A stretch of DNA of 64,000 bases from Deltaproteobacteria bacterium (GTDB lineage Bacteria; Desulfobacterota; Syntrophobacteria; Syntrophobacterales; Syntrophobacteraceae). A program made the position numbers and the translations under genes. Location of the stretch: contig JAAYVE010000061.1 of the NCBI GenBank assembly GCA_012517315.1, positions 1 through 64,000 on the forward strand, written 5' to 3'. This document shows, one piece after another, positions 40,151 through 62,883 of the stretch (the stretch's first letter is position 1; each line of letters begins with the position of its first letter). The notes under the pieces are model-generated. The model did no database searches. It was given only the letters and a program-made list of their open reading frames with translations, and was not told the origin of the DNA.

Positions 40151-40178
40151 TTTCGGGTGAGGGTAGGAGTTTTTTTTT
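40143..40178 (+). terminator. Riboswitch-controlled terminator before the dynamin-like gene
   Basis: ACTTCTAC (40143-40150) pairs with GTAGGAGT (40163-40170) in eight pairs, followed by eight more T. Its left arm overlaps the aptamer strand that pairs when fluoride is bound, so ligand should prevent termination. Confidence 0.85.
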
Positions 40179-40287
40179 GCCTCAGGACTCCTGCCCCATT
40201 GAGGGCTTTTCCCCCTCTGGGGATGCGTTGCCGCTCGATTTTGCGGCCAGTGTCTTGACCGGTTGCACCTGTCGAGAAAGGAAGGTC

Positions 40288-42090
40288 ATGTTGGATTATC
40301 CCAAAGTGAGAGACGGTCTGTTCGATGTCGCCGAGAGCCTCGCCCCGTACGTCCGCCCGGAGACGGTGGGCTCGTTGAAACACATCGAGGCGAAACTCCA
40401 GGAGGAAGCGTTCAATTTGGTCATCCTCGGGCAGTTCAAGAGGGGAAAGTCCACCTTCATCAACGCCCTCCTGGGGAAGGACATACTGCCTACCGCCATC
40501 GTCCCCCTCACTTCCGTCGTGACCATTCTCCGTTACGGTCCGGAACTGAGGGTCGAAGTGCAGTACCAGGACGACCGCAGGGAAACCGTCGCCCTGTCCC
40601 AAATCGCCTCCCTCATCACGGAACGGGAAAACCCCAAGAACGTGAAGGGAGTGAAGGAAGTCATCGTCTATTATCCCTCCCCATACCTCAAGGGAGGAGT
40701 CCGCATCATCGACACGCCCGGCGCAGGCTCCGTGTACAGCCACAACACGGATGTGGCCTACAGGTTTCTTCCTTACGTGGACGCCGGCATATTCGTGGTT
40801 TCCGCCGACCCGCCCCTTTCCAAGAGCGAGCACCAGTTCCTCCAGGATGTGCGGGAGCACGTGGACAAGCTTTTCTTCGTGCTGAACAAGATCGATCAGG
40901 TGAGCGACGCGGACCGCCAGGAAGCCCTCGACTTCACCCTCCGCATCTTGGAAGAGGACCTGGGAGCCGGCAAGGTCAAAATCTACCCTTTGTCCGCACG
41001 GTGGGCCCTCGAAGGGAAAAAAAGCAACAACGGAGAAATGCTGCGGCAAAGCCTGCTTCCAGACTTCGAAAAAAGCCTCCAGGAGTTCCTCGTTCATGAA
41101 AAGGGCAAGGTCTTTCTGCGCTCCATCATGAACAGCCTGCGGAAGCTCATTTCCGACGAGACGATCTCGTTCCAATTGGAGCAGGAGGCCATCAAGCTCC
41201 CCCTGGAAGAACTATCCGCCAAGATCGCCCGGTTCGAGCAGGAAATCCAGTCCATTTCCAAGGACCGCGAGAACAACCAATACCTCCTCAAGGGGCATCT
41301 GAACAAGATCATCGCCCAGCTGGACGAAGAGATCGGGCATTTCAAGCGGGAACGACAGCCTGTCTTGCAGGAGGAGCTGGAAGCCGAATACGTGCGCAAA
41401 ACCCGGCGGGGAGGAGGTCGATTGCGGGAAGAATTGGAGGAGTTCGCGTTCCAGGCCATTAAAAGGACCTTCAACGAATGGCGCGTGCAATTGACGGACA
41501 CGATTGCGTCACGGCTTGAGGACGCCCACCGCGAATTCGCCGAGAAGGTGAACGAGACGATCGAACGCATTCTGACCCTCACCGGCAGCATCTTCGATCT
41601 CAAGCTCAAACCGTTCACTTCCGTGGAAAAGCTGAGCAAGAAGAGCGAGTTCTATTTTCTTCTCAAAGACGACCCGGTCGGGCTCGAATTGATCCAGCTG
41701 GCGGTGACCTCGGCGCTTCCCCAGTTCATGGCGAAAAAGATGATCCTTAAGAACATGAAAACCTCGGTTGCGGAACTCTTGGACCGCCATTGCGGGCGCG
41801 TTCGTTACGACTTGGTCAACCGGGTGGGAAAAACCGTGAAGGACTTCCAGAATTCCCTCAACGAAAAAATCGACATGACCCTGGAGGGGATCCGGCTCTC
41901 CTTCCAAAAAGCCGTCGCCCTCCACCAGAGCGGCAAGGTGGACGTGGAAAAGAGCATGAACGAGCTGAGCGTGAAGCTCGGGTCCATTTCGGGTATTCAG
42001 GAGCAACTGCTTGCCTATGCCTCCGTGCTGAATCATGACGGTTCGAAAGCCCGGCAGGAAGGGCCGTTGCAGTCGGGCCCCGTCCACTGA
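40288..42090 (+). CDS. Bacterial dynamin-like GTPase
   Basis: 600 residues; the ATG at 40288 follows AAAGGAAGG. The GTPase domain has a P-loop GQFKRGKST (Gly48-Thr56), switch DTPGAGSVYSHN, and LNKID for guanine. The second half is long helical, coiled-coil stalk sequence (LEELSAKIARFEQEIQSISK; EELEAEYVRKTRRGGGRLRE) with an apolar stretch VGLELIQLAVTSALPQFMAK that could be a membrane paddle. Bacterial dynamins bind and remodel or protect membranes. It has its own promoter, fluoride riboswitch and terminator, suggesting it is made when fluoride rises, perhaps for membrane protection. That link is inference. Confidence 0.9.
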   Translation: MLDYPKVRDGLFDVAESLAPYVRPETVGSLKHIEAKLQEEAFNLVILGQFKRGKSTFINALLGKDILPTAIVPLTSVVTILRYGPELRVEVQYQDDRRETVALSQIASLITERENPKNVKGVKEVIVYYPSPYLKGGVRIIDTPGAGSVYSHNTDVAYRFLPYVDAGIFVVSADPPLSKSEHQFLQDVREHVDKLFFVLNKIDQVSDADRQEALDFTLRILEEDLGAGKVKIYPLSARWALEGKKSNNGEMLRQSLLPDFEKSLQEFLVHEKGKVFLRSIMNSLRKLISDETISFQLEQEAIKLPLEELSAKIARFEQEIQSISKDRENNQYLLKGHLNKIIAQLDEEIGHFKRERQPVLQEELEAEYVRKTRRGGGRLREELEEFAFQAIKRTFNEWRVQLTDTIASRLEDAHREFAEKVNETIERILTLTGSIFDLKLKPFTSVEKLSKKSEFYFLLKDDPVGLELIQLAVTSALPQFMAKKMILKNMKTSVAELLDRHCGRVRYDLVNRVGKTVKDFQNSLNEKIDMTLEGIRLSFQKAVALHQSGKVDVEKSMNELSVKLGSISGIQEQLLAYASVLNHDGSKARQEGPLQSGPVH

Positions 42091-46936: not shown

Positions 46937-49048
46937 TCACCGATAGGTGAAGGGGAACAGCTCCCTTCTGTGCCGCAGCACCGTCGAGAGGACTTCGTCC
47001 CATGCCGAGCAAAGGAATAAGCGCCGGAAGTGGGACTGCTCCCCATACGCATTCCGGATCATTCCCAGGATCGCCAGGGTTTTTTCCCGGAGCCACTCGA
47101 CGGGGCGATGCCCTTCCTGCCGGAGGAGAGCAAGGGGCATGAGGCCCATGGCCCGGACAGTGGGACCCAGCCTGAGGCAGCGGTCCAGTGATCGGCAAAA
47201 GGCCTCCGCCCGATCCCCGGGGTCCTCGAGGTACAGACCGGCGTTCAAGAGCCAGAGCTGCCAGGGATGCCTGCAGGGCGTGTCCCGGAGGTGCTTGTGC
47301 ATCCACCGTTCATAGACGGGGAGTCGCTCCCCGCTGTCCACGAGGAAACGGGCGACAGCCCCGTGCCGGAATCGGTTGAACCCCTCCACGTCTTGTGCAT
47401 TCAGATCTGACGGTTCCTTGCCGAGATATCTTGCCAGGACTGCCCGCGCCTCCCCCAACCTACCCGCATCCATCAGGGCATAGCACAGGTAGCAGAACTG
47501 CCGCCTCCAGTCTTCTTCATGCTCGGGAACCGCCCCATTCCCGAAAGCATCCTGGGCCAGATGGACATACCGTCGCAATGCGTCGAGTCGGGCCGGTCCA
47601 CAGAACCCGCAATTCTGGGCGAGGGTACCGTAAAGTCCGCCCAGATTGGGCGAAATGTACTCCGGGGAAAACCTCCTGCGGAACCCGAGGAACTGTTCCA
47701 GGTAGCTCATCGTCTCCATCAGTTCGTCCGGCAGTTCCATGCGGAAGTCGTAGTGATTGTGGCGCTCACGGAGGAAGGCACGGTTCATGAGGTCCACTTT
47801 GAGACGCAGGCCTTCTTCAGAACGGGATGCGGCGGGATCCAGCAACCGACCCAGTCGCACCCAGGTTTCCCCTTCTTCAATGCGCCCGTCATGATTGGCG
47901 ATAGTCAGCTGGATCTCGGTCAACCCTAAAGCCGCAACCGGCCTGGATGCGGCGATTTCCTCGACGGTTCGCACATCGAATGGAGCCATCAGATTTTCCA
48001 GACACTGACCTGAGGCGTCGGGATCGTCCATGAATCTGCGCAGATTGTACACGAAAGAGTCGATCAATGCCGTTTCCCGCAAGATCTCTCCCAGAGTGGC
48101 ACGGTATCGGCGTTCGAACCCCTTCCACAGGATCACCCGGCTGTCGAGGAGATGAACGTTGGAAGCCAATCGTTTGGGGTCCGACAAGCAATGGAACTGG
48201 TGGTCCAGGTCCTTGCCGGTCCCCGGGCTGTACAATTCGCAGAGAAAGCAGGCGTGGTCGAGGCTCTCCGCTTCCAGGACCTCCACCCCTTCCACTTCGA
48301 CGCTTCGAGATTCCTCGCTGACCGGCCACAAAACCGCCGAAAAACCTTTCTCCCGTGCAAGGCGCGCCTTCTGCCGCAAGTGCCCGACGGGTGCGAGGGA
48401 GAGGTCGCGCCCCAGGGCACCGGTGGAGAGAATCCTGCCGGGAAGAATCCCTCGGTCGAGAGAACAGCCCGCCAGGTACACGGGCAGGGCGAGGGAAGGG
48501 CCGAAAACGACGGGGCTCTGGGATGGGGGGAGGAGGGGCCAGAAAAAGAAGCCCGGGCCCAGCCGGTCTTCCAGGCCGCTCATGGCCGTGGACACCGCTT
48601 CCCGGGCCTGATCATCTGCTGCACCATCCCACCATGAAGGCCACCCGGGGGCGAGGGGCCGCCCTTCGATTCTCCCCATGAGGGCCCATGCAAGGTGAGC
48701 CCCTCTTTCCGTGACCAGGGCGAGGGGAAACGCCTGCCATCGTCCCTTCAGGATTTGAACCCACGTAAAGGGAAGTCCCAGGCGCGAGAGGGATACTCTC
48801 TTTTCCAGGAAAGGGAAAAGCCATGGGGGCATGCGTTCCTTCCCGGCCAGGGCCCCTGCCGTCACGCCGGTTTGCAAAATGAAGGTCCTGCCCCGTCCGA
48901 GGGCCTTCTCCACGCTGCGCCAAGCTTGTGCCCATTCCCCCTCCGTACGGGGCGGCTCCAAGCCACCAGGGCAGAGCATGTCCCACACCCGGTCGGCAAG
49001 GTGTCCGTGGAAGGCCCACACCGCCAATTCGGGCAGTGACCATTTCAT
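46937..49048 (-). CDS. Large protein with Lon-type Ser-Lys protease domain and helical C-terminus
   Basis: 703 residues from the ATG at 49048, four bases after the preceding gene. Residues about 170-290 match the Lon proteolytic domain: GPS at 183-185, ILSTGALGRDLSLAPVGHLR, then Lys227 in LRQK, with ARLAREKGFSAVLWP after it. The Ser-Lys distance (42) is within one residue of that in E. coli Lon (679 to 722), so the catalytic dyad appears intact. No AAA+ motor is present. Residues 330-703 are helical and repeat-like (LDALRRYVHLAQDAFGNGAV; RRQFCYLCYALMDAGRLGEA), suggesting TPR-like protein binding. It probably cleaves a partner, perhaps the zinc-finger protein upstream. Confidence 0.75.
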   Translation of the reverse strand: MKWSLPELAVWAFHGHLADRVWDMLCPGGLEPPRTEGEWAQAWRSVEKALGRGRTFILQTGVTAGALAGKERMPPWLFPFLEKRVSLSRLGLPFTWVQILKGRWQAFPLALVTERGAHLAWALMGRIEGRPLAPGWPSWWDGAADDQAREAVSTAMSGLEDRLGPGFFFWPLLPPSQSPVVFGPSLALPVYLAGCSLDRGILPGRILSTGALGRDLSLAPVGHLRQKARLAREKGFSAVLWPVSEESRSVEVEGVEVLEAESLDHACFLCELYSPGTGKDLDHQFHCLSDPKRLASNVHLLDSRVILWKGFERRYRATLGEILRETALIDSFVYNLRRFMDDPDASGQCLENLMAPFDVRTVEEIAASRPVAALGLTEIQLTIANHDGRIEEGETWVRLGRLLDPAASRSEEGLRLKVDLMNRAFLRERHNHYDFRMELPDELMETMSYLEQFLGFRRRFSPEYISPNLGGLYGTLAQNCGFCGPARLDALRRYVHLAQDAFGNGAVPEHEEDWRRQFCYLCYALMDAGRLGEARAVLARYLGKEPSDLNAQDVEGFNRFRHGAVARFLVDSGERLPVYERWMHKHLRDTPCRHPWQLWLLNAGLYLEDPGDRAEAFCRSLDRCLRLGPTVRAMGLMPLALLRQEGHRPVEWLREKTLAILGMIRNAYGEQSHFRRLFLCSAWDEVLSTVLRHRRELFPFTYR

Positions 49049-49052
49049 GGGT

Positions 49053-50180
49053 TCACGCACCGATGAGGAGGATGAAAACCTTCCCGTCCCACCATTCCGG
49101 CTCCGAAATGTCCTTGAAGTAGAGTCGAAAGTAGCCGGTTTCAGGATCGATGAAGGACTCTTCACCGATTCGCCCCGGCTGCCCCGGCGCAGCCCATCGC
49201 CCATAGAGCTCCACCCGGGGGGGCAGAGATGCGAGAGCCTTGCCGCCGACGACCGTTCCCCCTTCTTTGGGTGTCAGCACCCTCAATTCCCAGAGGATGG
49301 GGGAGAGTTGGACGGTTCCGCGTCGAACCACGACGAGGTTTGCCGGGAGGGTTTCCCCCTCCCCGGCGGCGGCCAGTGGCAGTTCCGATTCGGGAAAGCG
49401 GGCTCGGGCCAGCAGGTCCGCTGCATCCCCCGACGCCTCCGGCCAGGCGATTTGCGGGTAAACGCCGGACAATTCTCTTTTCAGGGTTCCCCCATCGGGA
49501 AAGAGGGCGCGGAGCCCCTCCAGGGGACTGCGTTCCCGTCGTTTCATGATTTCTTCCAGGGCCTGGAGAGCGAAAAAAGCGGCCACTTCCACCTCCAGCC
49601 TGCGAAACGCCTCCAGGTGAGTCCCTGCCGGGGGGGCCGGCCAATCCAGCGCGGCACCCTCCTTCACCTGCCGCAGCGTTTCTTCGTCGACACAACCGCC
49701 GCAGCATTCCAGGTCTTCCTCTCTCAGGGTGTACGTATTCCAGCTTTCGGCGAAGACGTCGTCTCCCAGGGGAATGTCCCCCGGACCGGCCAAAACCGGA
49801 TCGTCATAGATCTGCGCCACTCTCGCAGCCCCGGGGAGATCACCGGGCAGGTCCAGGACGAGCACCCAGGGAGGGTTGTAGTATCGGCCCTTGGGGCCCC
49901 AACCCCCGCACCGTTCGGAAACCCTGCACACCTGCCCCGGCGCCGGTCCCGCCTCGGGGCGGGGCATGGAAAAGCGTCTCAATTCCCTTGCAAGGGCGGT
50001 TTCCTCGAACTCTTCCCGGCCCATGGCCGCGGCTTCGCTGCAAAAAGGGCAGGTCGAGAGGTGATGAGAGAGGGAGCTGTCGCGATCCTCCCCCAAGAGG
50101 ACCCGGTCTGGCGGGCACCCCCTGGCCTGGAGCGCGGTCTGCCAAGCCAGCCTCATTTCCCACGGCTCAAAATCGGACAT
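49053..50180 (-). CDS. Zinc-finger (anti-sigma-like) protein
   Basis: 375 residues. Near the N-terminus, HHLSTCPFCSEAA gives the HxxxCxxC zinc motif of ZAS-type anti-sigma factors, usually the part that holds the sigma factor. A long middle part (PPWVLVLDLPGDLPGAARVA; LREEDLECCGGCVDEETLRQ) and a C-terminal beta-type domain (LWELRVLTPKEGGTVVGGKA; FIDPETGYFRLYFKDISEPE) follow; no membrane helix is present, so it is cytosolic. It lies between the sigma-like gene and the Lon-like protease gene, as a protease-sensitive inhibitor would. Confidence 0.7.
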   Translation of the reverse strand: MSDFEPWEMRLAWQTALQARGCPPDRVLLGEDRDSSLSHHLSTCPFCSEAAAMGREEFEETALARELRRFSMPRPEAGPAPGQVCRVSERCGGWGPKGRYYNPPWVLVLDLPGDLPGAARVAQIYDDPVLAGPGDIPLGDDVFAESWNTYTLREEDLECCGGCVDEETLRQVKEGAALDWPAPPAGTHLEAFRRLEVEVAAFFALQALEEIMKRRERSPLEGLRALFPDGGTLKRELSGVYPQIAWPEASGDAADLLARARFPESELPLAAAGEGETLPANLVVVRRGTVQLSPILWELRVLTPKEGGTVVGGKALASLPPRVELYGRWAAPGQPGRIGEESFIDPETGYFRLYFKDISEPEWWDGKVFILLIGA

Positions 50181-50243
50181 TCAACAAGACTCCGTCGGGT
50201 GGAAACCGTTGCGTGTGTGTCTTCCTTGCCAAGAGATACGGCT

Positions 50244-51308
50244 TCACATTTCTTTCTTGCAAATCTCCACCACCTCCAGCAGGAACGCCTCGAAAAGACC
50301 CCTGTCCAGGTCGGGGGGCGACAGGCCGGGCCAAAGAAGGCAAAAATCCCTGATGCTCTCGTGCACGCTTTTCTCGAGATGTTTGACCCCCGAAGGACCG
50401 CTGTAGCCGAGCCTCGGTGCGGCTTCATGGAGGGGAACCTCTTCACCCTGGAGGAGTGCGAACATCAGGCGTTGCCGGGGCGACCAGCCTGCGGCCAACT
50501 GTTCCGCGAGCAGAGGAATCCGGCTCCGTACGACCCCCGCATCCGCCCCGGGACCGTCCCAGGGGATCTCGACCCCCCTGCCCTCGTCATGGCCTGCGAT
50601 CCGGCCCTCTGCATCTAGCGGCACGGTCTCCGGTACGGAAAGGTCGGGGTAATGGCAGCCGATGAAATGCACCAGCTCCCGCACCGCCATAAAACAGGGC
50701 CTCCCCAGCCGTTGTGCGGCCTGCCGCCAGAAAAAGCCGGCCAGTTCCACGAGCGCATCCCGCTGGGGCAACCGCGTGACGCTCACCACGGCCAGGGGGG
50801 ATTCCCATGCGGCGTAACCCTCTTCCCCCGCGGGATCATGGGGTCCGGGCAAGTCCGCATTGGAGTCCAGGCTGTAAAAGGCCCCTTCCCGGGTAGCCCG
50901 GTAGGCGATGGAAGGCTCCTCCGAGAGGATCTGGCGAAGCCTTCGATACAGGGATCTCCTGGGGTCGTGGTCCAGGGTCCGCGCCTGGTCCCTCAGGTGG
51001 TTGAAAAAGCCCCGGGCGATGCGCTCCATGAGGACGCGGCCGTTCGCCCCATGGGCCGGCAGATCCCCCATACGCCGCAACCACCCTTCAGTCCGGGAGT
51101 TTAGAAAGAGCCACAACTCGTGGGCCACGGAACGGAAGCAGTCTTCACGCTCTTCTTGGGGCAAGGCCCATGGGTCGCAGCATGGAAGGAGGTCCGGGGG
51201 AAGACCCACTCGGCGGGCCAGGCGGAAGACGAACCGGACCGCCCCTTCCAGGACGGGTTGGCACTGAGGATTGGAAAGCCAGTCATGCCAAGCCTCGAGC
51301 AGAGTCAT
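50244..51308 (-). CDS. Divergent sigma-factor-like protein
   Basis: 354 residues. The C-terminal 80 residues resemble sigma region 4: WSPRQRLMFALLQGEEVPLH, EAAPRLGYSGPSGVKHLEKS, VHESIRDFCLLWPGL, a helix-turn-helix recognising a -35 box. The N-terminal two thirds (SVAHELWLFLNSRTEGWLRR; LMERIARGFFNHLRDQARTL; SLYRRLRQILSEEPSIAYRA) could hold a strongly diverged region 2 but is not clearly so. The ATG overlaps the stop of the gene upstream. With the zinc-finger protein it makes a sigma/anti-sigma pair by position. Length exceeds that of normal ECF factors. Confidence 0.65.
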   Translation of the reverse strand: MTLLEAWHDWLSNPQCQPVLEGAVRFVFRLARRVGLPPDLLPCCDPWALPQEEREDCFRSVAHELWLFLNSRTEGWLRRMGDLPAHGANGRVLMERIARGFFNHLRDQARTLDHDPRRSLYRRLRQILSEEPSIAYRATREGAFYSLDSNADLPGPHDPAGEEGYAAWESPLAVVSVTRLPQRDALVELAGFFWRQAAQRLGRPCFMAVRELVHFIGCHYPDLSVPETVPLDAEGRIAGHDEGRGVEIPWDGPGADAGVVRSRIPLLAEQLAAGWSPRQRLMFALLQGEEVPLHEAAPRLGYSGPSGVKHLEKSVHESIRDFCLLWPGLSPPDLDRGLFEAFLLEVVEICKKEM

Positions 51309-51769
51309 GCCATCCTCTCATCCAGGCACTCTTCCGGGACCCGGCCCCTGAACTCGAGACGGCCGAGAAAGGCAGGGTCCAGGGGGAGATTGAAACTGCA
51401 GGATTCCACGAGGTAACTCGCACGGTCGGTGACCACTCCAGTGTATTGCAGGACACACCCTCTGCGGATGGAGCGGCGCGCCCCCCAATCCTTGGAAGAG
51501 CATGGACACACCCTCTGGGCCACACCCGGCAGGGTCTTGAGAACAAAAAGGGGATGCGTTGATTTTCGTGAGACAACCGTGTGGGGGAATTCCCCGGTGA
51601 CTTCCCTCACCCGCGTGTCGGACGCCCCGAAAAAGAGCATTCGGGGTTCCCAGTAACACGGGGGCAGACGCTTGATACCGGGACCGATCCGTTCAAGGTC
51701 CACGGGACGAACCTGCACAGGCTCGATGCATTCCCAGATGGATGCGGCTCTGGATGAAAAGGTGGACAC
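51305..51769 (-). CDS. First gene of the sigma/protease operon, unknown function
   Basis: 154 residues from a GTG; four-base overlap with the sigma-like gene. No family recognised. It contains a conserved-looking core (RLPPCYWEPRMLFFGASDTR; SSKDWGARRSIRRGCVLQYT; FNLPLDPAFLGRLEFRGRVP) with five Cys and a mix of beta strands, no membrane or signal segment. Being first in the operon and tightly coupled, it may be the sensor or an additional partner of the module. Confidence 0.6.
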   Translation of the reverse strand: MSTFSSRAASIWECIEPVQVRPVDLERIGPGIKRLPPCYWEPRMLFFGASDTRVREVTGEFPHTVVSRKSTHPLFVLKTLPGVAQRVCPCSSKDWGARRSIRRGCVLQYTGVVTDRASYLVESCSFNLPLDPAFLGRLEFRGRVPEECLDERMA

Positions 51770-52040
51770 TGGTTCTCAGCCCATGGATGAACGTGAAACG
51801 GCTCATGAAAACCTGCTACGGAACCGGGCCGAATCCCTCACCCGATGAACCTTTCTATACCACAAGCCGAACGCCTGCGCCAGACAAGGGTTTCATCCTT
51901 GACTCACTCATTTCACCCCGCTTCTGAAAAAATGCGGCCCAAAGCCGTAATGGCCCAATGGAAAGTGAGCGTATGTGAGGAGGGACGGAAAAGGGTCTTC
52001 GCCCTCCCGGGCAGGCAAGAAACAGGAAAGGAGGAACACC
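51770..52040. other. Divergent control region between the sigma/protease operon and the plus-strand accessory genes
   Basis: 271 bases without a gene. It must carry promoters in both directions. A TTGACT at 51899-51904 (plus) is a possible -35 but lacks a good -10. The sigma-like factor of the operon may use a different box; any motif repeated here and upstream of csx20 or cas6 would be informative, but I see none by eye. Confidence 0.4.
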
Positions 52041-52529
52041 GTGAGTGTTGCATGGATCCAGGTGCATACCAGGTACAAGGCGGGGGATGAAGTCTTTTGC
52101 GCGGTGGACGATACCGGGTTCGGGTTCAGGAGAAAGTATGTCCGCAGGGTCTACGTGGAAACGGAGGTGGAGAACCTGGAAGACACCGCACGACAGGAAA
52201 GTTGTGTCTACTACGCCGTGAGCGACTTTCCCCACGGGGATTTCGACCCCATCGACCGGATGCCCGAGGATCACCTCCACACCCGGGAACAGGCCCTGGA
52301 CCACTTGGAAAAGCTGGTGCGACACCGTGCCGGACCTGTCCCCCAAAGCCCCGCGCCCGGGGACAACGTCAACGGACACCCGGAAGACGCCTCCTTCTGG
52401 ACAGAGTCCGCTTCCACCGAGGAAGACACCCAATTGGAGGGGATTCTCCTCCTCCTTCATCCCCCTCGCCGGGAAGCCCGGCGCCGGACCATCGACACGC
52501 GTCACCCCTGCGGCGAGGAAAGAGCATGA
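52041..52529 (+). CDS. Hypothetical protein beside the CRISPR accessory genes (1)
   Basis: 162 residues from a GTG behind GAAAGGAGGAAC. The N-terminal 80 residues are a compact beta-rich domain (VAWIQVHTRYKAGDEVFCAV; RRKYVRRVYVETEVENLEDT; CVYYAVSDFPHGDFDPIDRM) with an amphipathic helix after it (REQALDHLEKLVRHRA). The rest is an unstructured Pro/Arg-rich tail. No family recognised. It overlaps the next gene by four bases. Context between the protease module and csx20 suggests a role in defence or its control. Confidence 0.6.
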   Translation: MSVAWIQVHTRYKAGDEVFCAVDDTGFGFRRKYVRRVYVETEVENLEDTARQESCVYYAVSDFPHGDFDPIDRMPEDHLHTREQALDHLEKLVRHRAGPVPQSPAPGDNVNGHPEDASFWTESASTEEDTQLEGILLLLHPPRREARRRTIDTRHPCGEERA

Positions 52530-52906
52530 ACGGAAGCATCGAAACCTTGAAGGAACTGATCCTGCGCGGTGAATTCCACATGTTCACCGTGGCCCCCTGG
52601 GAAGTGATCGTCTATTGCAGGGTCCCCGAAAACGAGTACGCAACGATCGGCGACCCGGATATCCGCCTTGCGGGCATCTGGGTGGAAGACTGCCTCGCCG
52701 TCGTGGATATGACGTCGGAAGAGCCTCCCGAAAGGACTCGGCGTGACGGCCTCCTCAGGGACATGCGGATCGATGTCCCCTGGGATGCCGTCAACCTTTA
52801 TTACCTGGCCGGGCACTCCCCGTGGGACTTTTTTTCCACCGTGCATGTGGAAGGCGTCACCCTGGGGGAAACGGTCTTTGTTTTGCGCTACCCAGTCCAT
52901 GCTTGA
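52526..52906 (+). CDS. Hypothetical protein beside the CRISPR accessory genes (2)
   Basis: 126 residues, ATGA overlap with the preceding gene. The acidic alpha/beta sequence (GSIETLKELILRGEFHMFTV; APWEVIVYCRVPENEYATIG; IWVEDCLAVVDMTSEEPPER; DVPWDAVNLYYLAGHSPWDF; VTLGETVFVLRYPVHA) has no motif I know. No signal or membrane part. The tight coupling says the two proteins work together. Confidence 0.6.
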   Translation: MNGSIETLKELILRGEFHMFTVAPWEVIVYCRVPENEYATIGDPDIRLAGIWVEDCLAVVDMTSEEPPERTRRDGLLRDMRIDVPWDAVNLYYLAGHSPWDFFSTVHVEGVTLGETVFVLRYPVHA

Positions 52907-53114: not shown

Positions 53115-53504
53115 ATGTCGAAACTTCTTCTTCTCTTCAATCATACCCTGACGGGGCAGCAGTCGGCGGACGCCGTGGAAAACCTCGGTGTGTCCGGTTT
53201 CGTCAATCCACCCGAATCCGTCAAGGCCCTCTGGGCAGATATCCCTGCTTCCCCCGCCGAGATCCGCCCCTTCCTGCAGCCGGTCTTCGACTGGCTGGAC
53301 GGCGCTTCAGAACCCGGTGATTATGTTCTCGTCCAGGGCGACTTCGGGGCCGTCTTCCTGGTGGTCCACCATGCCCTGGAAACCCATCGCATCCCGGTCT
53401 ATTCCACCACCCGCCGGGAGGCCGCCGAAGAGCCGGGCCACGACGGGTCCGTCCAACTCACCCACCGGTTCCGCCACGTGCGGTTCCGAGAATATGGAGC
53501 ATAG
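53115..53504 (+). CDS. csx20: Csx20-family protein (probable ring nuclease)
   Basis: 129 residues, ATG at 53115. The start KLLLLFNHTLTGQQSADAVE, the WLDGASEPGDYVLVQGDFGA centre and the end IPVYSTTRREAAEE with RHVRFREYG fit the Csx20 family found beside type III CRISPR loci. Csx20 proteins are reported to degrade cyclic oligoadenylate, switching off the signal made by Cas10. The csx1-type RNase gene begins three bases after its stop, so effector and off-switch are made together. Confidence 0.78.
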   Translation: MSKLLLLFNHTLTGQQSADAVENLGVSGFVNPPESVKALWADIPASPAEIRPFLQPVFDWLDGASEPGDYVLVQGDFGAVFLVVHHALETHRIPVYSTTRREAAEEPGHDGSVQLTHRFRHVRFREYGA

Positions 53505-53507
53505 AAG

Positions 53508-54839
53508 ATGGCCAACGTCTACATTTCTTTTCTGGGAACCAACAATTACCTGGAATGCATCTACCATTGCAATGGTTTCGAGACCCCCGAACCGGTCCGG
53601 TTCGTTCAAGAGGCGTCCATCCAGATGAATTGCAGCGACTGGGGACCGAATGACCTCATTCTCATTTTCACCACTAAGGAGGCGGAACGGAAAAACTGGG
53701 TCGATGACGGCCATCGAAACGAGAAGGGCGAGATACTGCCCCTAAAAGGACTGGATCGGTGCCTCCGAGAAATGCGGTTGGCCGCCCCTCATGAGAACCG
53801 TTCGATCCCCGAAGGATACTCGGAGGAAGAAATCTGGGAAATCTTCAGGAAGGTTTATGATTGTCTCTCACCTGACGATCGTGTCGTTTTCGACATCACC
53901 CACGCATTTCGATCCATTCCCTTGGTGGCGGCAATTGTGCTCAACTACTCAAAAACATTGAAGAACATCCAGTTGAAAGGCATTTACTACGGGGCGTTCG
54001 AGGCACTGGGAAGCATCGGGCAGGTAAAATGCATGAAGGTTCAGGACCGGCGGGTGCGCATACTGGACCTCACCGCCCTCGATCGCCTGATGGACTGGAC
54101 CGTGGCTACCGACCGCTTCCTGCAAAGCGGGGATGCCAGAATGGCCGGCACCCTCGCCAAAGAGAGCGTCAAAGAGATCCTTAAAGAGACGAGAGGACGG
54201 GATGAAGCGGCCAGGACCATACGAGACCTTGGGCAATCCCTGGAATGCTTTACGTGGATGCTTTCAACCTGCCGCGGGCCGGAAATCACGGAAACAGCCA
54301 TGAAGCTGAAGCGCCAGGTCCAACTGTGCCGCAACCTGCAACTGCTTCCCCCGTTCCAACCCTTGTTCTCAACCATCGATGAACGACTCGGGGCATTCAG
54401 GGGCGAAAACCTTCAGGATGGACTGGCGGCGGTGCGGTGGTGTCTCAATCACAACCTCATTCAACAGGGGTTCACCATCCTTCAGGAAATACTGGTCACC
54501 TTCGTACTGGAGGAAACCGGCTTCGACCCGCTGGACCGGGACAAACGGGAAAAAGCGTCACACCTCTTCAAGGTCGCCAACGACAGGTTGGCTGGCAGTC
54601 CCTGCAAAGCTGAAGATCCCCGGGAGCCAGAAGGGGAAGATGCCCAAAAAATTCTGCATGTTATCCAACGGTACGGGGCCTTGTGCCAGGAAGTGGAACG
54701 AATGAGAACCCCCAGAAATGACCTCAACCATGCGGGGTTTCGCCCCGAGACGGAAAGGATCAGGGTGGACCGGTCGCCCGGCTTCGCGAAAAAGCTGGGA
54801 GAAATATTGGAACGGGTTGAGACACTCCTCAACCGGTGA
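53508..54839 (+). CDS. csx1: TM1812-type Csx1 family CARF-HEPN ribonuclease
   Basis: 443 residues. The N-terminal CARF domain binds cyclic oligoadenylate: YISFLGTNNYLECIYHCNGF and the strongly typical VVFDITHAFRSIPLVAAIVL. The C-terminal HEPN domain holds the RNase motif RxxxxH as RTPRNDLNHAGF (R-N-D-L-N-H). Upon infection, cOA made by Csm1/Cas10 would activate non-specific RNA cleavage. ATG three bases after csx20. It converges with the HEPN/MNT pair at the end of the csm operon. Confidence 0.88.
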   Translation: MANVYISFLGTNNYLECIYHCNGFETPEPVRFVQEASIQMNCSDWGPNDLILIFTTKEAERKNWVDDGHRNEKGEILPLKGLDRCLREMRLAAPHENRSIPEGYSEEEIWEIFRKVYDCLSPDDRVVFDITHAFRSIPLVAAIVLNYSKTLKNIQLKGIYYGAFEALGSIGQVKCMKVQDRRVRILDLTALDRLMDWTVATDRFLQSGDARMAGTLAKESVKEILKETRGRDEAARTIRDLGQSLECFTWMLSTCRGPEITETAMKLKRQVQLCRNLQLLPPFQPLFSTIDERLGAFRGENLQDGLAAVRWCLNHNLIQQGFTILQEILVTFVLEETGFDPLDRDKREKASHLFKVANDRLAGSPCKAEDPREPEGEDAQKILHVIQRYGALCQEVERMRTPRNDLNHAGFRPETERIRVDRSPGFAKKLGEILERVETLLNR

Positions 54840-54994: not shown

Positions 54995-55363
54995 CTAAAG
55001 AGGCATTCCCGTCTTCCGTGCCTCCTCCACGAGGCTTTCGGGCGCCATGTCGTCGAAAACCAGGTTGAGCGAGCGGTCCCAGATCCCCGTGGCATCCTCC
55101 ACCGCCTTGAGGGCCTTCCAGGTGAAGTCTTCCGGGAGGCCCACGATGAGCATGTCGATGTCCGAGGCGCGGTCGAAATGCCCCGGGCGCAGGATGGAGC
55201 CGAAGAGGATCACCTCCTTTGCTCCCAGGGCCCGCAGCGCGTCCCCCGCCGACCGGACCTTCTCCAGGAGCTCCAGCCTCTCCCGCTCCATGGCGGCTCG
55301 ATCCTCGTCATACTGCCGCCTGAGCCCCGCCCAATAGGCCGTCAGATCCCTGCCGTCACTCAT
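54995..55363 (-). CDS. MNT-domain nucleotidyltransferase antitoxin (MntA-like)
   Basis: 122 residues; the ATG at 55363 overlaps the HEPN stop by four bases. After a coiled N-terminus (RRQYDEDRAAMERERLELLE) comes the minimal nucleotidyltransferase fold: EVILFGSILRPGHFDRASDI, then DIDMLIVG with the catalytic Asp pair. In HEPN/MNT systems the MNT protein adenylylates the HEPN RNase toxin and silences it. It lies at the very end of the csm operon direction. Confidence 0.82.
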   Translation of the reverse strand: MSDGRDLTAYWAGLRRQYDEDRAAMERERLELLEKVRSAGDALRALGAKEVILFGSILRPGHFDRASDIDMLIVGLPEDFTWKALKAVEDATGIWDRSLNLVFDDMAPESLVEEARKTGMPL

Positions 55364-55839
55364 GGAGCCGACTCCAGAAACGCTTTGAACTGGAGGAAAT
55401 CCTCCCTCACGCGCTTCCAGTCCGTCTCGAGACCGTCCATGAGCTTGAAGATCCTGGCGGGGTCGATGTGATGCGTGTAGAGGTGCCTGAAAAGGTGCCG
55501 AAAGGCCCGGTATTCTTCCAGCCTTCGGTAGCTCTTCTCGGAGATGAGTGCCGGTCTCTTGCCCGGGCGCTCCACACTGACCGCCTGCAGTAGCTCGCGA
55601 TGCCATTCGGGACTTCGGCCGAATGTCCCGTCTATCTCCCGCGCAACGGCTTCAAAAATGCGTTCGAGACCGCTGTAGAAACTGTGCAGGCAGGCGGCAA
55701 GGCTGTCTGCCAGGATGTCCTCGGAACCGCTCTTCGCGAATTCCGCCTTGCGGGCATAGCGGTCGAGGCAGGTCGCGACCAGCCGGTCGAGTTCCATGCA
55801 CTCACGCTGTATCAGGGCAGGCAGCAGGGTCGGCATCAT
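55360..55839 (-). CDS. HEPN-domain toxin (HepT-like)
   Basis: 159 residues, all helical. SLAACLHSFYSGLERIFEAV is the typical HepT helix, and RAFRHLFRHLYTHHIDPARI carries the R-x4-H RNase motif, though with HLF rather than the usual N after Arg. It is coupled with the MNT gene. Its start lies 55 bases after csm5 on the same strand, so the toxin pair may be transcribed from the CRISPR operon promoter, which is unusual. Confidence 0.8.
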   Translation of the reverse strand: MMPTLLPALIQRECMELDRLVATCLDRYARKAEFAKSGSEDILADSLAACLHSFYSGLERIFEAVAREIDGTFGRSPEWHRELLQAVSVERPGKRPALISEKSYRRLEEYRAFRHLFRHLYTHHIDPARIFKLMDGLETDWKRVREDFLQFKAFLESAP

Positions 55840-55894: not shown

Positions 55895-57070
55895 TCAATG
55901 GACGGACTCCAGGGTCAGGAGCAGCCACCCAAAAGGCATGGGAGGTTTTCCATTCTCCATGACGCAGCGGGTGCGGGTGGCCCCCATTTCCGTGATGGGC
56001 CTTCTAGCCTGGACGTTGTATCCCTCCCGTAGTTCATCGACGGAAAGGGACTCGAAATGGGAATATCGTCCTATGCGCAGCAAAAGCCGCTTCCTCTGAC
56101 CCTGGGACCAGTAGTCGCTGTCGGGATCGATGATGAAGATTGGAGCATCAGGCTCGGGCAGCTTTCCTCTTGGAAACAGCTCGTGCAGGACCTGCCAGCA
56201 TCTCCCGCTTGCGGCCCTTCCATCGAATCTGTCAGCTTCGGCAAGCATGCGGCCCCAGTAAAAGCGATTACAGGCATCCAAAACGGTATCGAAATCCAGT
56301 GTCCTGCCGAGAAGAGCCTTGACTTCATGGTGTTGCATGACCGCCGTATCCAGATGGATGCTGACCGTGAAGCTCGGAGGCGTCCAACTGTCGGCAAATG
56401 ACTTGACGCGCTCGAGCCAGATGGGGATGTTTTCGACTCCCGGTCTTGAGGGGTTGAGCATCTCCGCACGGTCTATCCGGGTAGCCGCATCGGGCAGAGC
56501 AGCATCCTCGACCTCCAACAGCCTCAGCACATCCCGCTCCGTTTCGCTCTTTGATCTGTTCAGTGCCGATTCTTCCAGCCTCTTCGAACGCTCACCTCTG
56601 GGTGCCCTACGAACAGCCTCATGGACACGTTCACGGGAACTCGGGTTCAAGTTGGCGAAGTAGTTCACGATAGCCGTCCGAACGGCACCCTTGATGCTCG
56701 ACCCCGGTAAATAGGCACCGCCGGAGTACGGATTGCGCGGCATCATGTCCACGCGAAAGCGATTGTCGGGATTGCCGGCCCTGGCCAGGAATTCCCTTTG
56801 AAACGCTTGCGAGACATCGATTCTCGTCCGTCCCTCACGATCAGGATCGACATGACCCCGAAGAAACGACTGAATGCCTTTGAGGTCGGCTTTATCCAGA
56901 AGTTCGTTGAATCTGCGCAACTCGGATTCCTGCAGCCTGTTCAAGACAACCGCGGGACTGAACTGGACCAGGCAATTGTCATGAAGGATATACTCCAGAG
57001 GATCGATCTCATTGCCTGCACCCACGTGAATGGGCGTCAGCGCCTGAGCCTTGAAGCGGTAGATCGTCAT
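55895..57070 (-). CDS. csm5: Type III-A CRISPR RAMP protein Csm5
   Basis: 391 residues. The N-terminus YRFKAQALTPIHVGAGNEID and the glycine-rich AYLPGSSIKGAVRTAIVNYF are the RAMP signature; RFRVDMMPRNPYSGGAYLPG precedes it. A long middle insertion is typical of Csm5, which caps the Csm complex at the 3' end of the crRNA and recruits nucleases for crRNA trimming. Four-base overlap with csm4. Confidence 0.92.
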   Translation of the reverse strand: MTIYRFKAQALTPIHVGAGNEIDPLEYILHDNCLVQFSPAVVLNRLQESELRRFNELLDKADLKGIQSFLRGHVDPDREGRTRIDVSQAFQREFLARAGNPDNRFRVDMMPRNPYSGGAYLPGSSIKGAVRTAIVNYFANLNPSSRERVHEAVRRAPRGERSKRLEESALNRSKSETERDVLRLLEVEDAALPDAATRIDRAEMLNPSRPGVENIPIWLERVKSFADSWTPPSFTVSIHLDTAVMQHHEVKALLGRTLDFDTVLDACNRFYWGRMLAEADRFDGRAASGRCWQVLHELFPRGKLPEPDAPIFIIDPDSDYWSQGQRKRLLLRIGRYSHFESLSVDELREGYNVQARRPITEMGATRTRCVMENGKPPMPFGWLLLTLESVH

Positions 57071-58008
57071 GATCTCACCTCCGAAAAGAGGAGCGGGAGG
57101 TGTAAGGCATGGTGGCGAACCCCTGCAAGCTCCTTATCGTGGTGGACCCCCCGAAGCAAAGCCCCAAAGGGGCCGTCGTCGCTGGGTGCAAACGTTGCTC
57201 CCGGCCTTGCCATGAGGATGGGGTATTTGAACGGACTGTAACTGCCTTTCGCGTAATCACCCCCGAGCTTCCCAAAATGAACATGCTGTTTAAAACGCAC
57301 GTCCCTCATATTATGGCTGATCACGCCGTGGGACAGGCTCATGGCCCTGTTGCCGGTCGGCGCGAACAGAACCCTTTCCTCGCTTATTGTGCAACCAAAA
57401 TGACCGTTGCCAGTGCTTGCATTGCACCCGAACCCGTTCGCACCCACGAAAGCGAACAGGACTTGAAGTCTCTCCAGGCATGGTTCTCGAGTGCTCAAGA
57501 AAAGCTGGTGCATTGCGTTCGCATGGGGGATGGCGACCTGTTCAAAGAAGAGCCCTCCAGTTTGAGGCGTTGTTCCCGTGAGACGGTCAATGGTGTTGTG
57601 AGCCCTGACGCTTTCATCAGCCAAACCGTTTGTCTCTCCCGCCTTGATCACTTCTTTCTGCAGTGCGCCGTTGAGTTTTGCATCGCTCATGGTGTCACGC
57701 AGACGAAGAAAAAGAGACTCGCTGATGAACCGCCGTTTCCGCAAGGCCTTATTCAAACGCATTTCGTCCAGTGACTTCGGGAGCTCAGTTCTTAACTCCG
57801 GCCTCAGCAGGGGACGAGGAAGCATTCCAACAGGCATCTGGCTGGAGACGAGCCATGGTCGGACTTCTTGGTCCTGAAGCCATTGCAGGAAGGGTTTGTC
57901 GCCTTCTAGATACCTGATTGCCCAAGCCAAGTGGCCCCAGATTGTCCCCGAGACCAGGTCGGTTCCCAAGGCGCTCTTGAGATTCAGTCTTATGCGGTAA
58001 ACAGGCAT
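57067..58008 (-). CDS. csm4: Type III-A CRISPR RAMP protein Csm4
   Basis: 313 residues; the ATG at 58008 follows the csm3 stop by one base. Typical start VYRIRLNLKSALGTDLVSGT with IWGHLAWAI, and a glycine-rich end GGDYAKGSYSPFKYPILMAR. Csm4 binds the crRNA 5' handle and docks Csm1. A longer frame upstream reads through csm3 in another frame and is not used. Confidence 0.9.
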   Translation of the reverse strand: MPVYRIRLNLKSALGTDLVSGTIWGHLAWAIRYLEGDKPFLQWLQDQEVRPWLVSSQMPVGMLPRPLLRPELRTELPKSLDEMRLNKALRKRRFISESLFLRLRDTMSDAKLNGALQKEVIKAGETNGLADESVRAHNTIDRLTGTTPQTGGLFFEQVAIPHANAMHQLFLSTREPCLERLQVLFAFVGANGFGCNASTGNGHFGCTISEERVLFAPTGNRAMSLSHGVISHNMRDVRFKQHVHFGKLGGDYAKGSYSPFKYPILMARPGATFAPSDDGPFGALLRGVHHDKELAGVRHHALHLPLLFSEVRS

Positions 58009-58009
58009 T

Positions 58010-58738
58010 TCAGATGCTCCTGCGGAGTTGAAGGATGTCTTCCGGTGCGATCGCCCTGAATCTCTCCTGCCAATCCTGACCGTCAACTTGGAGACTCTCG
58101 AATTGAATTCGACCGTAACCCCTGGAACCCGACCCCCCAAGAGCGTCATGCTCCAGTAACCGCATGATTTGCAGCAAGGCAGTGAAAAAATCCTCGTCCT
58201 TCTTTCCTCCGTCACCGGTGTCGAAGATACGGTAAACCATGGTCAAGTCGAACAACGCCCCCGCAGGAACGCGCTCCGTCTTGCGGATCCCAACACCAGC
58301 CTTGCCTTGAATACGATCAATGTTATTCTCGAATTTCTCTTCCGTGAAGGGGAGACCGCGTTCAACGACTTCGTCCCTCCACACGGGGTTTATGGGACAG
58401 TCCCGGACAACGAGCCTCGTAGGACCCGCATTCCAGTTCTTACTCGTTGTACCGAAAATGCGCAGCACAGGGTCTTGAGCAAGGCACTCCGGGTTGCGTT
58501 CCTCACCACCGTCCCACGTCTTGCCATCGGACCTTACGCGGTTCGTGGCCCACTCCATGAGACACCGCAGCTTCCCCTTCAGAGAGGAGCCGGGGATATA
58601 TGGCTCGGCAGTGTAGGGATTCTTCACCACGGGGCTATCGATTCCACCGATCTCGATGGCGTCTTTGCCCGCGCCGATATGGAGACCTGTGACCACCTTT
58701 ATTTGTCCCGTGACAGTTTTGTTCTTAACAAGCCTCAT
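58010..58738 (-). CDS. csm3: Type III-A CRISPR backbone RNase Csm3
   Basis: 242 residues, ATG behind GAGAGGAG. VTGLHIGAGKDAIEIGG with Asp34 in GGIDSPVVKNP, the residue that cuts target RNA at six-base steps; AEPYIPGSSLKGKLRCLMEW is the glycine-rich RAMP loop; LLEHDALGGSGSRGYGRIQF ends the fold. All key parts are present, so target RNA cleavage should be active. Confidence 0.94.
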   Translation of the reverse strand: MRLVKNKTVTGQIKVVTGLHIGAGKDAIEIGGIDSPVVKNPYTAEPYIPGSSLKGKLRCLMEWATNRVRSDGKTWDGGEERNPECLAQDPVLRIFGTTSKNWNAGPTRLVVRDCPINPVWRDEVVERGLPFTEEKFENNIDRIQGKAGVGIRKTERVPAGALFDLTMVYRIFDTGDGGKKDEDFFTALLQIMRLLEHDALGGSGSRGYGRIQFESLQVDGQDWQERFRAIAPEDILQLRRSI

Positions 58739-58753
58739 GATGCAATTCTCCTC

Positions 58754-59236
58754 TCAATTGTCTTTCGCATAGAAACGGTGGAACGCAACAACAGCTTCGA
58801 ATACCTTGATGAATGCTTGGAAATCCCTCAAATCCTTGATGGAAGCTATGTGGTCGAAAATGAACTTGGTGAAGGCTCGCGGAGAAACCTTGCGTTTTTC
58901 AGCATAAACCGCCTTGGCCTTGAACATCATGATGAGGGCCTTATCTCTCTCGAAATTATTCTGCTGCTCTTGTAGGTCCTTGCCCCCAAGGATCTTGCGT
59001 TCAATAGCCTTGAATTCATCGTAAAAACGGCGCATCTGGGCAACTGTCAAGTTTGCAAAACCTTTTGCCCACTCCAGTGCTTGCTCATCCACCAGTTCCG
59101 GCTTGAGACTCTTTTTCGCCTCATCTGTGTGATACTTCAGTGGACTGGCCACAGGAAGCTGATCGCCTGTACCCGGCTGTTGTCCGCCCCGCCCACCCTG
59201 CGACGAACGTCCATGTTGTTGCTGATGGTTTACCAT
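58754..59236 (-). CDS. csm2: Type III-A CRISPR small subunit Csm2
   Basis: 160 residues, ATG behind GAAGGAGCG. After a Gln/Gly-rich lead it is all helical: WAKGFANLTVAQMRRFYDEF and FTKFIFDHIASIKDLRDFQA match the Csm2 core that lies along the target RNA inside the complex. Confidence 0.9.
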   Translation of the reverse strand: MVNHQQQHGRSSQGGRGGQQPGTGDQLPVASPLKYHTDEAKKSLKPELVDEQALEWAKGFANLTVAQMRRFYDEFKAIERKILGGKDLQEQQNNFERDKALIMMFKAKAVYAEKRKVSPRAFTKFIFDHIASIKDLRDFQAFIKVFEAVVAFHRFYAKDN

Positions 59237-59254
59237 AGTTCAACGCTCCTTCAT

Positions 59255-61795: not shown

Positions 61796-61836
61796 CTCTT
61801 CCTCCAGCAACTAGCCCGCGTTACACTAAGATCCCT

Positions 61837-62883
61837 TCACACGCCCTCCAGCCGGTACCGGCCCAGGCCGAAGGTGGTGTTCTTGCCCAGGTTGACCCAG
61901 GAGCCAAGAACCAGGAGTGGCAGGAAAGGGGCGAGGTCCCCCTCGTAGTCCAGCTCCCCCAGGATGCCCCCCAGCTTCATGCGCTTGTCCTGCCTGTGGG
62001 AATAGCGCTCCCAGTCGTGCCACCGGGTGTTGCGGCGGGCGAGGCGGACCTCTTCCGCGAGATCGATGAGCCTCCCGTCCAGGGCCGGGGCACTTTCGTC
62101 GCAATGAAACAAAGTGAGATTCCCCAGGCGCCGCAGAAGGTTGCGCACAAGAACATGGAAGGCGGGCTCCCGGCATAACTCCCCGCCATACACGAGGCGA
62201 AGCGGCGTGAGCAGGCGCATCCTGAGCCTGTCCCCCGGCAGCCTCTCGCACGCCGCCAGGGCGTCTTCTAGGCTCAGTGCCGCCCGGGGCATCTGGAGGG
62301 TCCCGTCTGTGTAAACCGTCTCCACCTCCCGGTCCTCCCCGTTGAGAGCCATGAGCCGGGTCACCGTAAAGTTCCCCCGCCCCTTCCCCAGGCCCAGTTC
62401 TCCCATGCGCCGGAAGGCGAAGACAAAGTAGGGGAGAAACTCCACGGCCCGACCCACCAGGGTGATGCCGAAGGAAAAGAGGCTTCCCCGTTCACATACC
62501 TCTTCGCCCCCGATCTCCAGGTTGAGCACGAACGGGTGGGGCGCCGTGGCATACCGCCTGGTCTCCTCGGCGACGCCTCCGTTGGGGGTCTCGAAAACAT
62601 AGCTGTAGATGCACCGGGTCCTCAGGAGGCAGTTCTCACAGTTCTGCCTTTTCAGGACGCAGCAACTCGCCTTGAGGGCCGTCCCGAAAGCCCCCCGCAG
62701 GGCGCCCCCCCGGTAGGCGGGTAGGTGGATGGTGGACTGCGCCTTCACCTCCACCCGCAACCGCACGCATCGAAATGCGCCCAGGGAAGCCTCAAGCCCC
62801 CGGCACCCGAGAGTCGGCGGCAGGTCCTCGCGCCCTGCCACTGTGCATTCACCATATCCCTTCATGGAACGGACTCCATCCAT
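61837..62883 (-). CDS. cas6: CRISPR pre-crRNA endonuclease Cas6 (type III-associated)
   Basis: 348 residues from the ATG at 62883; a TTG seven codons upstream and an ATG six codons downstream are alternatives. Cys-rich NCENCLLRTRCIYSYVFETP in the first half, FSFGITLVGRAVEFLPYFVF, and the glycine-rich C-terminal LGSWVNLGKNTTFGLGRYRL are the pattern of Cas6 proteins with the C-terminal Cas6 domain. It cuts the repeat RNA to make crRNAs. It is first gene of the cas6-csm operon. No array is visible in the window, so repeats must lie elsewhere. Confidence 0.88.
   Translation of the reverse strand: MDGVRSMKGYGECTVAGREDLPPTLGCRGLEASLGAFRCVRLRVEVKAQSTIHLPAYRGGALRGAFGTALKASCCVLKRQNCENCLLRTRCIYSYVFETPNGGVAEETRRYATAPHPFVLNLEIGGEEVCERGSLFSFGITLVGRAVEFLPYFVFAFRRMGELGLGKGRGNFTVTRLMALNGEDREVETVYTDGTLQMPRAALSLEDALAACERLPGDRLRMRLLTPLRLVYGGELCREPAFHVLVRNLLRRLGNLTLFHCDESAPALDGRLIDLAEEVRLARRNTRWHDWERYSHRQDKRMKLGGILGELDYEGDLAPFLPLLVLGSWVNLGKNTTFGLGRYRLEGV

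Follow-up and report, generated by a model that had tools for sequence, protein, structure and literature searches.

Introduction

Two described systems link CRISPR recognition to transcription through proteolysis: in both CalpL/CalpT/CalpS and Csx29/Csx30/CASP-sigma a CRISPR-switched protease acts on the inhibitor of a sigma factor (PMC11417357, PMC12751052, PMC10028731). The second of these, Craspase, is a type III-E system comprising the TPR-CHAT protein Csx29 together with Csx30, Csx31 and CASP-sigma, and has been studied in the marine anaerobe Desulfonema ishimotonii (PMC10028731). Here, we describe a four-gene module, A-B-C-D, found beside a type III-A CRISPR locus in a 64,000-nucleotide stretch of DNA from a Deltaproteobacteria bacterium of the Syntrophobacteraceae (GCA_012517315.1, contig JAAYVE010000061.1, positions 1 to 64,000; this whole stretch is hereafter called the window). 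We propose that the module probably acts as a sigma switch under protease control and forms one of the output arms of type III CRISPR.

The module resembles the Calp system in that protein D has a Lon protease domain with a Ser-Lys dyad and no AAA+ domain, shares its operon with genes that are anti-sigma-like and sigma-like by homology, and lies in a type III neighbourhood (PMC11417357, PMC12751052). The input differs, being a TPR superhelix with a conserved tail in D but a SAVED domain in CalpL. D is also longer than the CalpL chain (703 amino acids versus 496 residues); moreover, the module has four genes, its sigma-like protein B has 354 amino acids, and its zinc protein C has 375 amino acids and a ZAS motif, whereas CalpT is a 33-kDa protein. 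With Craspase the module shares a TPR-bearing protease, a sigma inhibitor and a sigma factor (both predicted in the module), and one more conserved gene (PMC10028731). However, the protease of D is of the Lon type and that of Csx29 a caspase (CHAT), and the window encodes separate csm2-5 and cas10 products (type III-A; type III-B elsewhere), while Craspase uses the single-protein Cas7-11/gRAMP. Comparison of C and A with the PDB and PADLOC, libraries whose coverage of Csx30 and Csx31 is uncertain, gave no meaningful match. A literature search that left most subscription papers and bioRxiv preprints out of reach yielded no description of the module and no report of type III TPR-DUF3800 proteins or of Lon-TPR proteins, and scans of Pfam, NCBIfam and PADLOC likewise yielded no description of the module. 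The literature consulted also included PMC11229360, PMC12839542 and PMC8211822.

Results

Protein D joins a Lon protease domain to a TPR superhelix

When D was searched singly against the PDB, only marginal matches were obtained, one of them to the Lon domain of M. jannaschii (E=0.08). A profile built from 15 homologues matched PDB Lon protease domains with E=1.7e-12, and also matched CalpL (7qda) within its Lon part (E=0.0018). The proposed catalytic residues, Ser185 and Lys227, were invariant in both of the alignments analyzed (15/15 and 19/19 D sequences). An AlphaFold model computed from 19 sequences reached a predicted local distance difference test score (pLDDT) of 91.8 and divides D into a helical N-terminal part of 100 residues, a Lon-type domain (residues 103-275) and an all-helical, high-confidence region spanning residues 278-703. 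In structure comparison, this model aligned with Lon domains over 166 residues (Z about 19, root-mean-square deviation [rmsd] 2.3), while residues 290-703 resembled the TPR superhelices of APPBP2 (Z 19.7), NprR (18.4), Rap (17.7) and MalT (17.7). These TPR-type neighbours include the peptide-sensing NprR and Rap proteins as well as domain III of MalT. Conserved positions within the TPR part of D include Q478, N479, R516 and R567. Because structure comparison gave Lon domains and then TPR superhelices, D is, on this model, a Lon-TPR protein lacking both an AAA+ domain, which was not found, and a SAVED domain. The SAVED fold is of the alpha/beta kind and was not seen in D, since residues 278-703 are all helical and match TPR folds; SAVED and CARF were also missing among the 50 VIA-align rows listed for D, an absence that by itself proves nothing. 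An earlier note on this DNA, made from its letters, had described a Lon-type Ser185-Lys227 dyad without an AAA+ motor and a helical C-terminus in place of SAVED, and had suggested structure prediction as a check; the profile and the model bear out this description and refine the helical part to a TPR superhelix. The window genome also carries, elsewhere, a decayed second copy of the C-terminal part of D (L042/L204, G000:C40:87535-88071), with 40% identity and two in-frame stops.

B and C are a candidate sigma factor and a predicted anti-sigma factor

In B, an N-terminal helical and possibly sigma2-like part (about residues 16-130) is followed by sigma region 4 (about residues 264-325). The Pfam family Sigma70_r4 was found in 10 of the 14 B family members, with a best value of 3e-5, and in 3/12 of a second set that is more divergent and partly truncated; the B of the window itself had no Pfam match. 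The B profile matched region 4 of FliA with E=0.011, and hhalign against six sigma factors of the same genome gave P=1.6e-9, over sigma4 only. For region 2, Pfam gave a match at 0.057 in one of the 14 members. No Foldseek match to the B model reached E<=0.001; the first seven rows were all sigma chains or models. The top row, a sigma28, aligned over the whole length (Foldseek E 0.23; VIA Z 7.9, rmsd 5.9, 129 residues aligned, spanning residues 2-327), and residues 264-338 aligned with sigma region 4 at Z about 7.5 and rmsd about 2.2 (VIA). We regard B as a sigma factor with moderate confidence. Of the sigma-like protein described earlier, region 4 stands by family members, profile and model, while region 2 has only weak structural matches in its favour; structure prediction likewise placed sigma factors in the first rows, none at a significant Foldseek E-value.

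The zinc motif that had been noticed in C as HxxxCxxC proved to be conserved and of the ZAS type: in an alignment of 14 sequences, C22, H40 and C44 were invariant and C47 nearly so. The Pfam family zf-HC2 was matched by none of these 14 members (set A3), the window member included. A divergent C homologue (L036:11372-12691) matched zf-HC2 (PF13490) above the cut-off, at 8.2e-6, and the C-like protein of another divergent operon, L039, aligned to the C family with P=4.5e-8. C is accordingly best described as a predicted anti-sigma factor. A PDB profile search with C returned chance-level chains only. Protein A is conserved at HP, VCPC, GC and C148 across 11 aligned homologues; it had no meaningful match in Pfam, NCBIfam, PADLOC or the PDB, where its profile search matched zero chains. 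A PemK/MazF barrel, which looked attractive by eye in both C and A, gained no significant support from hhalign (P=0.0014 and probability 17% for C; P=0.0059 and probability 6% for A), and the A-like and C-like genes of L039 fared no better.

The four-gene arrangement is a conserved family

We sought homologues of D in 147 relatives and in 395 genomes of the phylum, and scanned a collection of 84,980 species with one peptide pattern of D, by which alone the other phyla were covered. D was present in 21/395 phylum genomes, after four weak profile matches had been dropped from an initial 25: G337, G153 and G071, which are AAA+ Lon proteins, and G162, a lone Lon fragment. The peptide pattern found 18 loci, all titled as members of the Desulfobacterota or Deltaproteobacteria. 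Among the 38 loci collected through D, 23 contained A-B-C-D complete and in one order, a recurrence that argues against a chance arrangement. The remaining 15 lacked A, or A and B, or, in one case, A, B and C, several of them lying at contig ends; in G037, n54, n56 and G010, a module gene was cut or split. The module is thus a conserved family that has so far been seen in one phylum only. No relatives were found on plasmids (D and B searched) or on viral contigs (patterns of D, A and B searched).

Two divergent operons, judged by homology, keep the logic of the module. L036 has in a row a sigma-like gene (region-4 P=3e-5, no Pfam match), the zf-HC2 gene and a Lon-TPR gene, and L039 has a gene of no assigned function, a sigma4-like gene, the C-like gene and a Lon-TPR gene. 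The L039 operon adjoins genes for a TPR protein and a TOTE-type archaeo-eukaryotic primase (L039:14002-16981). Three further candidates were set aside: L038 and L040, which are Mg-chelatase/ComM-like, and L041, which is RadA-like. Also met with were an AAA+ Lon protease with a response-regulator receiver domain before its AAA+ module (L176:7978-9984, minus strand; Pfam) and a second AAA+ Lon protease resembling it by eye (L178:7843-9846, minus strand).

The module is linked to type III CRISPR

We then analyzed the neighbourhoods of 39 loci (the 38 above and L039). Type III genes (cas10, csm, csx1 or cas6) were found in 22/39 loci, one with cas6 only and three with csx1 only, by a search seeded from the III-A locus of the window, which may miss III-B genes. 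These loci were drawn from seven labelled families and seven named records, and include a named isolate, Desulfobulbus elongatus DSM 2908 (L058). A CRISPR-like array alone was present in 3/39 loci, one of them weak. At the genome level, a strong Cas10 (PF22335, E<1e-10; the total of 118 genomes was counted by hand) occurred in 17 of the 21 D genomes, the window genome included, versus 101 of the 374 others (Fisher p=9e-7, uncorrected for relatedness), and at least one Cas10-positive genome was present in 10 of the 11 D-bearing families. The four D genomes without it were G004, G033, G221 and G326, the last two curli-linked; G004 and G033 are drafts (93% and 96% complete) with the module on contigs of 8.6 kb and 5.8 kb, respectively. 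A further check found Cas10 in G012, G037, G038, G041 and G158. Of the 19 Cas10-like open reading frames (ORFs) in the loci, 17 contain the motif GGDD, and the two without it are fragments truncated at contig ends.

To distinguish Csm1 from Cmr2, TIGR models were applied to 15 genomes (E<=1e-10). Csm1 without Cmr2 was found in G000, G006, G026, G030 and G339, of which G026 carries a further Cas10-like ORF, whereas Cmr2 was the sole Cas10 over the cut-off in G211, G235 and G168; in G211 and G235 the Cmr2-kind Cas10 lies on the module's own contig. By this typing, the module accompanies III-A loci in some genomes and III-B loci in others. The earlier note had proposed searching for co-occurrence with cas10 and had stated that its interpretation would fall if the module never lay near CRISPR or other defence loci; the CRISPR association was found, in support of that interpretation. 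Together, the locus and genome counts show a genuine but incomplete link to CRISPR.

The TPR domain and its tail recur on DUF3800-like proteins

D ends in a short conserved tail, FPFTYR. An FPF-type tail (FPF and then TYR, SYR or a close variant) ended 34/39 aligned rows; the five rows without it were the truncated n60 and G300, the two curli-linked D proteins, and a DUF3800-like protein of L036, which ends in FTFNYY. That last protein was also one of the 24 rows from which a profile of the TPR half alone was built. Searching with this profile located the domain on a second kind of protein, of 726-735 amino acids, with an N-terminal MDESG motif, which we take to be typical of DUF3800, and the ending FTFNY[RHY]. 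The Pfam match to DUF3800 itself was weak, with E=0.2 in one such protein and none in the others. The L206 protein adjoins cas6, cas10 and a RAMP gene; the L198 protein, on a 3.6-kb contig, adjoins one ORF with a sub-threshold RAMP match; and the L036 protein adjoins its Lon-TPR operon. By gene content, L206 clearly and L198 probably lie beside type III genes. In a fourth case, G158, only fragments were present, and type III genes were not seen within its 10 kb.

TPR-DUF3800 proteins are known from Cas12a2 loci (PMC10910872), and DUF3800 from VI-F and V-A2 loci (PMC12669027). The proteins described here resemble those of Cas12a2 loci in that TPR and DUF3800 are combined in one protein encoded next to a CRISPR effector, but they share the TPR profile of D and the FTFNY tail, one of them is clearly beside type III genes, and their DUF3800 match is weak. 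The recurrence of the TPR domain of D on DUF3800-like proteins, of which that of L206 clearly adjoins type III genes, suggests that type III systems use it as an input domain distinct from CARF and SAVED. A broader proposal, which we put forward tentatively and with less than even confidence, is that a TPR superhelix with an F-[PT]-F-x-Y-type tail forms a new class of type III signal receptor, placed on at least two effectors that are unrelated to each other (the Lon protease that governs a sigma factor and the DUF3800-like protein) and serving both Csm and Cmr, with the tail gone and the input half changed in the curli branch.

Operon layout and genomic context

An ORF scan confirmed the four tightly packed genes that had been reported at 46937-51769, all of them on the minus strand. 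The overlap between A and B is 4 nt, the stop of C lies 4 nt from the start of D, and 63 nt separate B from C. The longest ORF of D (46937-49204, minus strand) would encode 755 amino acids; homologues, whose starts were chosen by script close to the position equivalent to ATG 49048, align from that ATG, with W3, E7 and W11 conserved. In NCBIfam and PADLOC the A-D proteins of the window had zero matches, and in Pfam only sub-threshold ones (TPR on D; chance level on A and C). No promoter motif common to the stretches upstream of A was apparent by eye among 23 stretches, of which two begin within truncated genes; TTGACA-like elements were limited to three related loci (G027, G031 and G033).

The adjoining type III-A locus named in the earlier note was found with csm1-5 and cas6 (Table 1). 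Because genes for Csx1 and for Csx20, a ring nuclease for cyclic tetraadenylate (cA4) (PMC12409355), adjoin it, the locus is by its gene content built for cyclic oligoadenylate (cOA) signalling. Elsewhere in the window, overlapping MntA-like nucleotidyltransferase and HepT-like genes of toxin-antitoxin type (54995-55839) lie between csx1 and csm5; two small ORFs (184 and 126 amino acids; 51975-52906) without Pfam matches, oriented divergently from the module, separate it from csx20-csx1; and a dynamin-like GTPase with LeoA-type PADLOC matches (40177-42090) lies a few kilobases from the module.

Table 1. Coordinates of the module, its functional elements and related features (window positions unless a locus handle is given)
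Feature	Position	Strand	Remarks
Gene A	51305-51769	-	154 aa, unknown function, first in operon
Gene B	50244-51308	-	354 aa, sigma-like
Sigma region 4 (helix-turn-helix) of B	50349-50519	-	Profile and model
Gene C	49053-50180	-	375 aa, zinc protein; predicted anti-sigma factor and predicted D substrate
C22...H40-x3-C44-x2-C47 ZAS-type zinc motif of C	50040-50117	-	C family alignment
Gene D	46937-49048	-	Lon-TPR, 703 aa from ATG at 49048
Lon (S16) proteolytic domain of D	48224-48742	-	Residues 103-275
Ser185 codon	48494-48496	-	Lon dyad of D
Lys227 codon	48368-48370	-	Lon dyad of D
TPR superhelix of D	46958-48181	-	Residues about 290-697, proposed signal-input domain
Conserved C-terminal tail FPFTYR of D	46940-46957	-	Residues 698-703
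csx20	53115-53504	+	cA4 ring-nuclease family; PADLOC Csx20 1.1e-44
csx1 (CARF-HEPN)	53508-54839	+	Family of cOA-activated RNases; library scans
Type III-A locus: csm5, csm4, csm3, csm2, cas10/csm1, cas6	55895-62904	-	
cas10/csm1	59255-61810	-	HD and GGDD motifs present
cas6	61837-62904	-	Type III-A locus
DUF3800-like TPR protein	L206:9493-11685	-	TPR profile and FTFNY tail
DUF3800-like TPR protein	L198:169-2376	+	TPR profile and FTFNY tail
DUF3800-like TPR protein	L036:14711-16891	-	TPR profile and FTFNY tail

Discussion

From the computed operon, Lon fold with its dyad, TPR fold, sigma region 4, zinc motif and CRISPR linkage, we infer a scheme of B-C binding, cleavage of C by D, a signal and a regulon that we consider likely overall. 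At rest, the zinc protein C, as anti-sigma factor, would hold the sigma factor B. When a type III complex detects invader RNA, an alarm would reach the TPR domain of D, the Lon Ser-Lys site would be switched on and C would be cut, and B, once freed, would redirect RNA polymerase to a defence regulon. The conserved protein A may play an accessory part, perhaps as a third member of the complex of B and C. For the alarm, a diffusible cOA made by Cas10 is the most likely candidate, since the module lies near both III-A and III-B loci and GGDD is intact in every neighbouring Cas10 that extends to the palm. Because the parts list is the same as that of CalpL/T/S and Csx29/Csx30/CASP-sigma, the module is best read as a third such protease/anti-sigma/sigma output for type III CRISPR, alongside Calp and Craspase.

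The way in which D is activated could differ from this. In place of a nucleotide messenger, the TPR domain might dock on the target-bound Csm or Cmr complex, as Csx29 does on Cas7-11, a possibility that we hold to be real but rather unlikely. TPR domains often bind proteins, the TPR of Csx29 contacts Cas7-11 (PMC10028731), and the conserved tail of D might serve as a peptide for docking; furthermore, TPR-DUF3800 proteins also accompany Cas12a2 and are not tied to cOA in the consulted parts of PMC10910872. On the other hand, one surface would have to fit both the III-A and the III-B complex, because the module is near the former in some genomes and the latter in others, and the GGDD motif is kept by the palm-bearing Cas10 neighbours. 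The TPR chemistry and the Cas12a2 parallel favour contact, whereas the Csm and Cmr neighbours, the conserved GGDD, Csx1 and Csx20 favour a messenger.

Several observations weigh against the proposed CRISPR-gated sigma switch. To our knowledge, no cOA receptor of the TPR kind has been described. Region 2 of B was not detected by hhalign, and the model of B is of moderate quality (pLDDT 76.7; predicted template modelling score 0.42). Neither a type III gene nor an array was found in 14/39 loci, 11 of which are on short or cut stretches, and a Cas10 match was absent from four drafts with a tail-bearing D (G001, G004, G010 and G033; 88-96% complete). The D of L039 lacks the tail although its genome carries Cas10 on another contig, and this led us to reject the idea that tail loss is confined to the curli branch. 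In that branch, a complete A-B-C-D (L099 in G221; L100 in G326) adjoins curli-like genes in two genomes with no strong Cas10; the neighbours, named by eye from their translations, are CsgG, CsgE/F and curlin repeats, with LuxR-type regulators nearby. In a tree of Lon domains the curli-linked D proteins are nested, with weak support, among CRISPR-linked ones. As these two modules are tail-less and sit beside curli-like genes without strong Cas10, the cassette is not exclusive to CRISPR but portable, and its input half appears to change with the partner.

The curli-linked modules, their place in the tree and the four drafts would also fit a general stress sigma cassette that is merely a frequent neighbour of type III loci and answers to an unrelated trigger. 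We regard this as improbable, given the breadth of the type III association across families and named records, the Cas10 enrichment in D genomes and the occurrence of the same TPR domain on a different protein that adjoins type III genes; in addition, both curli-linked D proteins lack the tail. Less probable still is that D is a scaffold, or acts on a protein other than C, with C or A acting otherwise, for instance as a PemK-like barrel. BrxL shows that a Lon fold can lack the dyad, and C has the weak PemK-like register mentioned above, but a scaffold would have no need of Ser185 and Lys227, which are invariant in the alignments of 15 and 19 D rows.

If the CRISPR-gated sigma switch is correct, type III CRISPR would have reached the same output, in which an anti-sigma factor is cut, a sigma factor is freed and transcription is changed, at least three times through different combinations of protease and sensor, and transcriptional reprogramming would be a general strategy. 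The TPR-tail domain shared with the DUF3800-like proteins makes it possible to test directly whether the type III alarm is read in a new way, and the curli branch would show, as a natural experiment, how a CRISPR output cassette and another regulator came to be exchanged.

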